From the NCBI RefSeq assembly GCF_000759795.1, contig NZ_BBMZ01000012.1, positions 1 to 64,000 on the forward strand: a stretch of 64,000 nucleotides of DNA. The letters are read 5' to 3'. The DNA comes from Pseudescherichia vulneris NBRC 102420. GTDB taxonomy: Bacteria > Pseudomonadota > Gammaproteobacteria > Enterobacterales > Enterobacteriaceae. A program made the translations under genes and the position numbers. Below are positions 54,012-56,610 of the stretch, piece by piece (position 1 is the stretch's first letter; each line of letters begins with the position of its first letter). The notes under the pieces were generated by a model. The model had not been told where the DNA came from. It saw nothing but the letters and a program-made list of their open reading frames with translations, and did not search any database.

Positions 54012-54503
54012 ATGCCATCTTTCGATATTGTTTCTGAAGTTGACCTTCAGGAAGTCCGTAACGGCGTAGACAATGCCAGCCGTGAAGTTGAGTCACGTTT
54101 CGATTTCCGTGGCGTTGAGGCAACGTTTGAGCTGAACGATGCCAATAAGACCATTAAGGTACTGAGCGAGTCTGATTTCCAGGTCAATCAGCTGCTGGAT
54201 ATCCTGCGCGCCAAGCTGCTTAAGCGCGGTATTGAGGGGGCCTCTCTCGATGTGCCGGAAGAGTTTGTGCACAGCGGTAAAACTTGGTTTGTTGAAGCCA
54301 AGCTGAAGCAGGGAATTGAGAGCGCGGTGCAGAAGAAGCTCGTGAAGCTCATCAAGGACAGCAAGCTGAAGGTACAGGCGCAGATTCAGGGGGAGGAGAT
54401 CCGCGTTACCGGTAAATCTCGCGACGATCTGCAGTCGGTGATGGCGCTGGTGCGTGGGGGGGATCTGGGGCAGCCGTTCCAGTTCAAAAACTTCCGCGAT
54501 TAA
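54012..54503 (+). CDS. yajQ: Nucleotide-binding protein YajQ
   Basis: 163 residues, the E. coli length, starting [15 protein letters not shown]; two ferredoxin-like halves. Homologues bind nucleotides, and in Xanthomonas cyclic di-GMP; the role in enterics is unsettled. SD AAAGGAGAAG is close upstream. Immediately downstream lies the structured element. Confidence 0.96.
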
Positions 54504-54578
54504 TAAAAATGCCCGGTTATCCGCAATGCTTGTCAGTTAAACTGCTGGATAAGGGAGATATGTGACTCTGGTATATGT

Positions 54579-55160
54579 GTTCCGTTCACCTCATGGAGGG
54601 CAGAACATATAGCGAGTGTCACACGTGAACGGGATAAGGGGGCCACCGCGGCCCCCTTATCGATCCCCGCGGCCCCGCGGGGAAACCGGTGCTGCGCACT
54701 GCGCTCACCTCCCGCCCGGCTGACCGACGGCCGGCTCGACTCGACGTCGTGTCTCGTTTCGCCTCTGGCCGCCCTCCCTGGCGTCCAGTCCTTGTCATCC
54801 GGTCTCCGGTTCGCCGGTTTCAGCGGGGACTCAACACCCACGCTGTAAGACCGAAACTTACAGCAACATTGAAGCCGCTATAAGTACGGTATCAAAGCGA
54901 GGTGTTGGGTCCGGCTGAAAATCGCCGAGGCGTTCACTTCTGGCCGGGGCAGCCCGCATGGATGCGGGCTGAGGGCGTGCCTTACAGGGAAGTTACCTCA
55001 CGCCCGACCCGGAAGCCGGAAGGGCTAAGCTGAGGGAACCGCAAAGCGGCGATTTTCCCTGCCGGGAGCCCGGGTCGCCAGGGTGGTGGCGGCGAGCCAC
55101 CCTGGCACGTTCACGTGTGTAGATTTCCCAAAGAAGCACTGTCCATGAGGTGAACGGAAC
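54579..55160. other. 582-bp structured noncoding element bounded by 19-bp inverted repeats
   Basis: A gene-free GC-rich element. Ends: GTTCCGTTCACCTCATGGA (54579-54597) and its exact reverse complement (55142-55160). A nested second repeat, CACACGTGAACG (54620-54631), pairs with CGTTCACGTGTG (55108-55119). Inside are many hairpins: a 12-bp stem at 54633-54661, CCCCGCGG/CCGCGGGG at 54665-54682, GCTGTAAG/CTTACAGC at 54842-54864, AGCCCGCAT/ATGCGGGCT near 54951-54970, CGACCCGG/CCGGGTCG enclosing 55013-55069, and GCCAGGGTGG/CCACCCTGGC at 55077-55106. It fits a large folded RNA or a non-autonomous mobile element. I do not recognise the family. Confidence 0.75.
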
Positions 55161-55194
55161 CTCAGCGGCCCCTCATATTCTTCCTACCCTTGCC

Positions 55195-55229
55195 AAAAAA
55201 AATGCCAGTCGATTTAACTGACTGGCATT
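55195..55229 (-). terminator. Terminator after yajR
   Basis: On minus, a stem AATGCCAGTC and GACTGGCATT is followed by eight T residues (A run at 55195-55202 on plus). It lies about 20 bases past the yajR stop. Confidence 0.85.
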
Positions 55230-55248
55230 AACTATTATCTGTGCTTGT

Positions 55249-56610
55249 TTAGGCTCTGAGCGCCTGCTCAACCTCAAAACGATTCGTTACTTTGCTGTCG
55301 ATTTTCACGTAGGCGCTGCGCTCTTCGGGGACGATCAGCACCTCGCTGACGCCCGCTTTGCTCTCTAGCTGCTGCTTAAGCGTATCGGTGATCGCTACGT
55401 CATCCGGGATCTCCACGCGCAGGCTGCTGACGTAGGGCGGCTCCTGCATGGTACTGGCGACCAGCAGCCAAACGGTGGCCAGCAGCGCGCCTGCCAGGAA
55501 GACCGTCTGGGAGTCAAACAGGCCGTCAACCCAGCCCCCCAGCGAGCCGCCGATGGCGACGCCGATAAACTGGCTGGTGGAGTAGATGCCCATCGCCGTA
55601 CCTTTATAGCCCGCCGGGGCCTCTTTGCTGATCAGCGAGGGGAGGAGGGCTTCCATCAGGTTGAAGGCCAGGAAGAAGAGCTGGACGCCCGCGACCAGCT
55701 CCCAGAAGTGCGGTCCCGCACCCCAGAGCACAATCTCGGCAATCAGCAGGACGATCACGCAGAAGATGAAGACCCGCTTCATATGGCGCTTCACTTCAGC
55801 GTAGATAATAAACGGCACTACGCTGACGAAAGAGATAAGCATCGTCACCAGGTAGATCTTCCAATGCTCCGATGCCGGGAAGCCTGCGGCCTCCATCTGT
55901 CCTGGCAGGGCAACGAAAGTGGACATCAGCAGAATGTGCAGACACATAATGCCGAAGTTAAGCTTCAGCAGCGGCGGGCGGGCTATCACTTTACTAAAGC
56001 AGCCTTTCACCATGCCTGACTCACGGTTCAGCACGTGATTTTTGCTGTCCGGAACCACCCACAGCGTCAGAATGATGCCCGCCGTGGCCAGGCCAGCAAT
56101 CATCCAGAACAGGGCGTGCAGGCCAAGCCGATGGGTAATAATAGGGCCAAGCACCATAGCAATAGCAAAGGTAATGCCAAAGCTAACGCCGATAAAGGCC
56201 ATCGCCTTGGTGCGGTTCTGTTCGCGAGTGAGGTCAGAGAGCAGGGCCATGACCGCGGCGGCAATGGCCCCGGAGCCCTGCAGGGCGCGGCCAAGAATAA
56301 TGCCCCAGATCGAATCTGAGAGAGCGGCAATCACGCTGCCAATAACAAAAATCACCAGCCCGCCGACGATCAGCGGCTTACGGCCAATGCGATCCGACAG
56401 CAGGCCGAAAGGGATCTGGAATACCGCCTGGGCCAGGCCGTAAATGCCAATGGCAAAGCCAATCAGCGCTTCGCTGGCCCCCTGTAGCGCCATGCCATAG
56501 GTGGTCAGAACGGGCAGGACCATAAACATGCCGAGCATACGCAGCGAGAATACTGTCCCTAAACCCCAGGTGGCGCGTAGCTCGCCTGGCGTCATTTTAT
56601 AATCGTTCAT
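55249..56610 (-). CDS. yajR: MFS transporter YajR
   Basis: 453 residues: twelve membrane helices followed by a C-terminal ferredoxin-like YAM domain (about 388-453, SSLRVEIPDD...AYVKIDSKVTNRFEVEQALRA), the mark of YajR. Loop 2-3 motif GLLSDRIGRKPL. Substrate unknown. The start MNDYKMTPGELRATWGLG matches E. coli; nine upstream codons are excluded. Confidence 0.95.
   Translation of the reverse strand: MNDYKMTPGELRATWGLGTVFSLRMLGMFMVLPVLTTYGMALQGASEALIGFAIGIYGLAQAVFQIPFGLLSDRIGRKPLIVGGLVIFVIGSVIAALSDSIWGIILGRALQGSGAIAAAVMALLSDLTREQNRTKAMAFIGVSFGITFAIAMVLGPIITHRLGLHALFWMIAGLATAGIILTLWVVPDSKNHVLNRESGMVKGCFSKVIARPPLLKLNFGIMCLHILLMSTFVALPGQMEAAGFPASEHWKIYLVTMLISFVSVVPFIIYAEVKRHMKRVFIFCVIVLLIAEIVLWGAGPHFWELVAGVQLFFLAFNLMEALLPSLISKEAPAGYKGTAMGIYSTSQFIGVAIGGSLGGWVDGLFDSQTVFLAGALLATVWLLVASTMQEPPYVSSLRVEIPDDVAITDTLKQQLESKAGVSEVLIVPEERSAYVKIDSKVTNRFEVEQALRA

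Follow-up and report, generated by a model that had tools for sequence, protein, structure and literature searches.

The intergenic region between yajQ and yajR of Pseudescherichia vulneris holds a mobile, multi-copy element with a covarying, RNA-type structure, as we observe in its copies, its insertion, its homology, its fold and its conserved loops. Sequence comparison makes it a homologue of the TRIP1 repeats of Escherichia coli and, via intermediates, of the Rfam family TwoAYGGAY. The best reading, towards which we lean at a little over an even chance, is that the element is a non-autonomous mobile repeat which bears an RNA for CsrA docking. Its transcription, its binding of CsrA, its effect on the host and its mobilising enzyme are what we infer. 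The link between TRIP1 and TwoAYGGAY, together with the ANGGAN loops, would tie an unexplained repeat family to a predicted CsrA-binding RNA. If this is true, then mobile elements seed binding sites for the global post-transcriptional regulator CsrA.

Within the window (the whole 64,000-nucleotide stretch analysed) the original prediction had marked a gene-free, heavily self-complementary element of 582 bp. Such an element exists, but its extent has to be corrected: the 582 bp lie inside a larger insert at about 54525-55229. The perfect 19-bp inverted ends are located at 54579-54597 and 55142-55160, and homology between copies runs on outside them, past the 582 bp. An outer inverted repeat, AATGCCAGTCAGTTAA, is found at 54525-54540 (2 mismatches) and at 55214-55229 (exact). 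The nested inverted repeat that had been described joins 54620-54643 to 55096-55119 (24 nt, 79%) and contains the perfect 12-bp CACACGTGAACG / CGTTCACGTGTG; the further internal hairpins were also found and positioned. The neighbours are indeed yajQ and yajR, identified by NF003819 for YajQ and by the YajR_YAM domain for YajR, and the two genes converge on the element. Its features, with approximate 5' limits for the two units, are as follows.

54525-55229, no strand: probable full element of ~705 bp with outer inverted repeats, delimited by its AATGCCAGTCAGTTAA ends and by the uninterrupted terminator in congeners
54525-54540, plus: left outer inverted repeat, AATGCCAGTCAGTTAA pattern with 2 mismatches
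54579-54597, plus: left arm of the perfect 19-bp inverted repeat, where unit A has its 3' end
54579-54868, minus: unit A, reading leftwards, homologous to unit B
54633-54661, minus: unit A 12-bp GC-rich hairpin close to the 3' end
54740-54756, minus: unit A hairpin 2, degenerate (ACACGACGU), GGA changed to CGA
54765-54788, minus: unit A hairpin 1, loop AGGGAG (ANGGAN), GGA unpaired probability 0.47
54842-54864, minus: unit A 5' hairpin at the A/B junction
54870-55160, plus: unit B, TRIP1-type, reading rightwards, homologous to TRIP1a
54875-54899, plus: unit B 5' hairpin at the A/B junction
54950-54971, plus: unit B hairpin 1, loop AUGGAU (ANGGAN), GGA unpaired probability 1.0
54973-55005, plus: unit B hairpin 2, AC[AGGGAA]GU, GGA unpaired probability 0.62
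55076-55106, plus: unit B GC-rich hairpin close to the 3' end
55107-55157, plus: unit B 3' CGTTCAC/GTGAACG hairpin, whose counterpart stem in TRIP1a is GCGCTCC/GGAGCGC
55142-55160, plus: right arm of the perfect 19-bp inverted repeat, where unit B has its 3' end
55195-55229, minus: terminator-like hairpin 3' of yajR, one arm of which is the right outer repeat
55214-55229, minus: right outer inverted repeat, exact, also an arm of the terminator-like hairpin

By alignment the element is made of two diverged ~290-nt copies of one unit, set 5' end to 5' end. The reverse-complemented left half matches the right half at 62% over 133 nt (E 3e-10), a second homologous block lies at the 5' end, and the 5' ends of unit A (minus) and unit B (plus) meet near 54869. 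Our covariance model R1 describes the core of B and was built from B units related by blastn (for the unit alignments 9 B labels and 1 A label were removed as partial or misplaced, and alignment A2 used 29 of 31 B cores). R1 also matches the window's unit A (E 9e-7; locus L001, 1592-1751 minus); hence A and B form one family. The arrangement recurs: in all 25 loci with exactly one unit per strand the order is minus-plus, with the 5' ends facing each other.

As had been noted from the letters alone, the element pairs heavily with itself on either strand, and each strand folds far better than its dinucleotide shuffles. One strand reaches -315 kcal/mol against -244 +/- 8 (z -9.0), the other -316 against -246 +/- 7 (z -9.5), and none of 100 shuffles is as good in either case. 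Both strands look structured because the element contains two inverted copies of one unit.

The mobile-element reading is borne out by comparison among genomes. Four copies, one of them broken into two pieces, are present in the genome itself, and DNA matches occur in 11 of the 99 genomes of a sample of relatives, its own included. The element is thus neither confined to a single copy nor devoid of homologues, and at the two sites checked the orthologous position is empty in both congeners. At yajQ-yajR both congeners searched have an uninterrupted hairpin terminator, AAAAATGCCCGGTTATCCGGGCATTTTTTT. The window copy sits within this terminator, about 8 bp of which are lost, and compared with the congeners it has evidently replaced half of the bidirectional yajQ-yajR terminator. 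Target duplications, which had been suggested as a mark of mobility, gave a divided result. None is found at yajQ-yajR; at a second site (C48), empty in both congeners, a 15-bp CCGTAAGGCCCTTTT, itself terminator sequence, stands on both sides of the insert. The one copy read in genome G102 (L162) has one arm of a terminator-like repeat on each side. In E. coli the evidence speaks against clean target duplications: at alx-sstT and proX-ygaY, occupied in other strains, K-12 has unrelated filler, and these sites resemble replacements (the proX-ygaY alignment being poor on its left side).

The outer ends are less uniform than the units. Allowing at most 2 mismatches, AATGCCAGTCAGTTAA occurs at four places in the genome: the two ends of the window element, one end of the copy at C47:61668 and a place on C53 that is not at an element copy. 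The other two copies in this genome show it only at 4 mismatches or more; a copy in a congener (L006) has it at both ends. Copies in G106 and G102 have outer ends different from those in the window's genome, so different hosts may supply different mobilising enzymes. For an autonomous insertion sequence sharing the outer ends, the one candidate place in this genome is that on C53, the only AATGCCAGTCAGTTAA match away from the copies. A phage origin is disfavoured: a search of 50,697 phage records by blastn gave no match at E <= 1e-5.

The copies of ~710 bp in G106 (L151, L152, L154 and L155) end in TGTCTCTTAGTCACAAC and about ATAAGAGACAG, unlike AATGCCAGTCAGTTAA. We take these ends to resemble those of IS50/Tn5; the outer-end pattern has ten matches in G106. 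A separate observation concerns the yajQ-yajR terminator of congener G001 (L254), where another GC-rich inverted repeat, GTAGGCCCGGCAAGCAGAGCGCCGCCGGGC, similar to REP on visual inspection, is found. The terminator thus looks as if it were a hot spot for unrelated repeats.

The family, which the original prediction could not name, can now be placed: it is that of E. coli TRIP1, a diverged relative of TwoAYGGAY in Rfam. Unit B is 82.6% identical to TRIP1a over 178 nt (E 9e-45; L037, which carries exactly the unit of K-12 MG1655) and 78.6% identical over 285 nt to the copy at yegH-asmA (L034). B-type sequence is found in 5376 of 5426 complete E. coli genomes, and the E. coli loci that we read carry it at lysO-aqpZ, dusC-yohP, alx-sstT, proX-ygaY and yegH-asmA. 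R1 extends the family further. At E <= 1e-3 it matches 104 of 295 genomes of the bacterial family and 21 of 197 in a sample of the order, 14 of the 21 lying outside the family. In a class sample of 274 it matches 15 genomes besides the window's own, the weakest near E 2e-4. With more candidates scored, R1 at E <= 1e-5 finds 2-47 copies in each of 19 positive genomes.

TRIP1a-e have been described as single repeats of 146-273 bp whose role is unclear (PMC10888264, which cites Rudd et al. 1999). Like TRIP1, to which it is homologous, unit B is GC-rich and intergenic, has a very stable predicted RNA fold and occurs in few copies per genome. Unlike the E. coli copies read, which are lone B units, the window holds an A/B head-to-head pair with inverted ends; at ~705 bp this pair is outside the range of a single TRIP1 repeat, and unit B alone is of similar size. 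Both TRIP1a and TRIP1c are reported in two orientations per locus, in 3448 and 1255 genomes and in 2952 and 2789 genomes, respectively (PMC10888264). These reported orientations, at lysO-aqpZ and dusC-yohP, point to an in-place inversion. The K-12 RefSeq record annotates no RNA or gene feature over TRIP1a, b or c.

The connection to TwoAYGGAY (RF01731) runs through intermediate sequences. R1 finds L103 (E 5e-18), L079 (4e-16) and L088 (1e-12), all three of which pass the RF01731 threshold, and the L103 unit aligns with RF01731 from end to end. Below the gathering threshold of 43 bits are the TRIP1-type units of L033, L037 and L039 (28-32 bits) and TRIP1a (30.6). Window unit A scores 23.6 bits and is thus not a member by Rfam's rule. 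RF01731 matches neither the window's own genome at E <= 0.01 nor the window locus L001 at E <= 5; among 14 loci it matches 8 at E <= 5, always at the position and on the strand of the unit. Across 36 genomes (33 positive for R1 and 3 negative) it matches 23 at E <= 0.01, 12 of them over the cut-off. None of the 3 R1-negative genomes and none of 14 control genomes was matched.

Like TwoAYGGAY, the window units have a closing stem that holds two consecutive hairpins with GGA loops; unlike it, they and TRIP1 score under the threshold. The AYGGAY pattern itself is fitted by AUGGAU of window unit B. Its second loop, AGGGAA, fits ANGGAN only, and unit A has AGGGAG and a degenerate second loop. TwoAYGGAY has been listed as a motif that is probably RNA (PMC2864571) and has already been proposed to bind CsrA (PMC4333381). 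The CsrA idea for TwoAYGGAY is therefore already known and is credited to the latter. For TRIP1 we found no work that joins the repeat with CsrA, and the accessible text of PMC10888264 mentions neither CsrA nor TwoAYGGAY. In the parts of the literature on either family available to us, a link between TRIP1 and TwoAYGGAY, a head-to-head pair and insertion into terminators were not found, nor was copy number in that on TwoAYGGAY. In the CLIP-seq study of E. coli CsrA (PMC5694010), a term search of the main text found none of aqpZ, putP and yohI.

Covariation speaks for the structured RNA that had been one of two candidate explanations. Each of the 43 base pairs in the model has compensatory changes, both partners varying, across an alignment of 130 distinct units. 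They cover the long-range closing helix (helix 1) as well as local hairpins. In the alignment, whose fitting to the model biases it in the model's favour, 94.5% of pairing cells can pair, against 65.9% after shuffling and 33-44% after sliding. G-U occupies 61 of 2289 cells and A-C 21, in an alignment that leans towards G-U. The excess of G-U over A-C favours an RNA on the unit strand; yet G-U is rare overall, and a structure kept in DNA would also fit such rarity.

The loops are more constant than the stems that display them. RsmE recognises an ANGGAN hexaloop, and CsrA selected by SELEX the sequence RUACARGGAUGU, mostly in six-nucleotide loops closed by AC/GU (PMC7652899, section 4). Alignment A4 holds 150 of 173 R1 matches; 148 of these (at least 140 nt) were thinned at 0.85 similarity to 55 non-redundant units. 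At least one ANGGAN hexaloop on a stem of at least 4 bp is present in 48 of the 55 (50 with at least 3 pairs). On the reverse strand the count is 1 of 55, and 200 shuffle sets give a mean of 1.0 and a maximum of 4. Apical stems exchange freely and the loops keep GGA. In the 29 B units found by blastn, A.GGA of hairpin 1 is invariant (29/29) and its second letter varies. In a set chosen by the motif A.GGA, the letter before GGA is G in 38, T in 16, C in 7 and A in 5. GNRA tetraloops as the source of the GGGA loops are disfavoured by this variable letter and by the invariant A.GGA of the 29 B units.

Against the circularity of the loop test we used R3, a covariance model with the loops masked, which matched 18 of 345 genomes at E <= 1e-4. 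From 22 loci and 20 further stretches, a part of all R3 matches, 52 matches were used, of which thinning left 28 non-redundant ones (at least 90 nt). An ANGGAN hexaloop is present in 15 of the 28 and a GGA loop of 4-8 nt in 26; on the reverse strand, the sole control here, the counts are 0 and 3. Five class-level loci from outside the order have GGA loops on the unit strand in 5 of 5 cases and on the other strand in 1 of 5.

Two strict hexaloops are found in a minority of units: 16 of 55 with stems of at least 3 pairs and 13 with at least 4. Their spacing is 28-30 nt in 14 of the 16 two-loop units with at least 3 pairs, which falls inside the 10-63 nt over which one CsrA dimer bridges two sites (PMC7652899, section 4). 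Window units A and B and K-12 TRIP1a have only one strict ANGGAN hexaloop each, stem-closed and with GGA unpaired, among 8, 7 and 4 GGA triplets, respectively. In unit B the loop of hairpin 2 is closed by two pairs only and hence is under the strict three-pair test. Counting its two strands together, the 64-kb window contains 8 ANGGAN hairpins; the element accounts for two, one per unit and in the sense of the unit. K-12 TRIP1a reads CCCAC[AUGGAU]GUGGG and UUUUAC[AGGGAU]GUUACC, TRIP1c likewise. TRIP1b (L176, putP-efeU) has lost both apical ANGGAN hairpins and forms a natural negative control; it is reported to carry a 125-bp deletion and to be retained in 3529 genomes (PMC10888264).

CsrB and CsrC (RF00018 and RF00084) are the obvious points of comparison. 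They share Rfam clan CL00106 with TwoAYGGAY and have many GGA motifs. CsrB has 22 GGA in 369 nt and is one dedicated sRNA gene; window-type units, unlike it, are dispersed repeats with 1-2 displayed loops and no recognised promoter. The many GGA sites in one sRNA that make a sponge of the CsrB/CsrC type are not found in the window units. On the same test CsrB and CsrC have no strict ANGGAN hexaloop. Thus the strict test cannot serve as a general indicator that an RNA binds CsrA.

With regard to position, 74 elements had neighbours that could be called by simple open reading frames (loci of less than 2,900 bases, duplicates and loci without a 110-codon frame on both sides were excluded). They lie between convergent genes in 37 cases, co-directional genes in 33 and divergent genes in 4, and 70 of the 74 adjoin at least one gene 3' end; these counts stand without a genome-wide baseline. 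Lone units between co-directional genes are in the same direction in 12 cases and opposite in 7, which does not make a convincing sense bias. A consensus scan of 54450-55300 found no sigma-70-like promoter, and a minus-strand terminator-like hairpin stands between yajR and the element. Both make transcription less certain, above all that of unit A.

The mechanism that we propose is the following. Two head-to-head RNA units of TRIP1/TwoAYGGAY type form one non-autonomous mobile repeat, which inserted into the bidirectional yajQ-yajR terminator after the split from the congeners. Transcription running in from one or other neighbour would yield RNA with one sense unit, B from yajQ or A from yajR. 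This unit would fold stably into two consecutive GGA-loop hairpins ~29 nt apart, at least one with a firm ANGGAN hexaloop, and each of the two loops may bind one face of a single CsrA dimer. In effect the repeat would probably supply, at several sites per genome, either a CsrA-binding 3' tail or a small decoy for CsrA. The wider claim is possible but doubtful: CsrA-docking RNAs would form a transposable family, with as many as tens of copies in a genome, that enters terminators and either gives genes CsrA-binding tails or titrates CsrA as a dispersed reservoir, so that mobile elements partly shape the Csr network. Several observations count against docking. Strict two-loop units are the minority, window unit A has lost one GGA, TRIP1b lacks the loops and yet is kept, and each unit has few sites, unlike CsrB.

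The structure could instead act as DNA. Single-stranded hairpins would then be the substrate of a transposase or a replication process, the loops would be recognition letters and the RNA would be incidental. Mobility with inverted ends, outer ends that vary among host genomes and the rarity of G-U pairs all agree with this. Moreover, template switching at quasi-palindromes can yield compensatory changes without selection on RNA. We think such a role fairly unlikely, since covariation includes the long-range closing helix in addition to local hairpins and the clan placement with CsrB and CsrC is independent. Furthermore, ANGGAN confined to one strand, its second letter free to vary, agrees with a known RNA-binding protein and with no DNA rule that we know of.

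Alternatively, the element may be an ordinary GC-rich intergenic repeat, a bidirectional terminator or a stabiliser of mRNA 3' ends similar to REP/BIME, with GGA loops that have no function. The element resembles REP and BIME in being an inverted intergenic repeat of a family that lies mostly at gene 3' ends; it differs in its ~290-nt units with a complex conserved fold, compared to 20-40 bp for REPs (PMC3733652). The preference for 3' ends (70 of 74, with 37 convergent and 4 divergent pairs), the terminator-like sequence at sites with junctions read, the different repeat at yajQ-yajR in G001 and the persistence of TRIP1b without loops are in its favour. It leaves unexplained why ANGGAN is constant amid diverging stems and why the complex fold is conserved, and we consider it unlikely. 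A decayed or small protein gene is hardly credible. A frame of 102 amino acids exists at 54533-54841 minus. Nevertheless, the three longest-looking frames have no Pfam or NCBIfam match at E <= 1, consistent with the absence of a convincing coding frame in the original prediction, single-base indels among A units break any frame, and K-12 RefSeq has no gene over TRIP1a, b or c. The CsrA-docking mobile repeat stays our preferred reading.

In E. coli ABU 83972, an Rfam JUMPstart match adjoins wza (L033:867-905 minus). Some loci depart from the simple pair. In G030, about 880 bp of other sequence with open frames separate two divergent A units (L009 and L028). Tandem arrays of alternating A and B units with a period of ~640 bp occur at two loci of G013 (L021 and L029). 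At 719-2892 of L127 (G193) there are five B units; four follow one another at intervals of exactly 446 bp and three have an equal model score. Such exact spacing and equal scores are a sign of recent tandem amplification.
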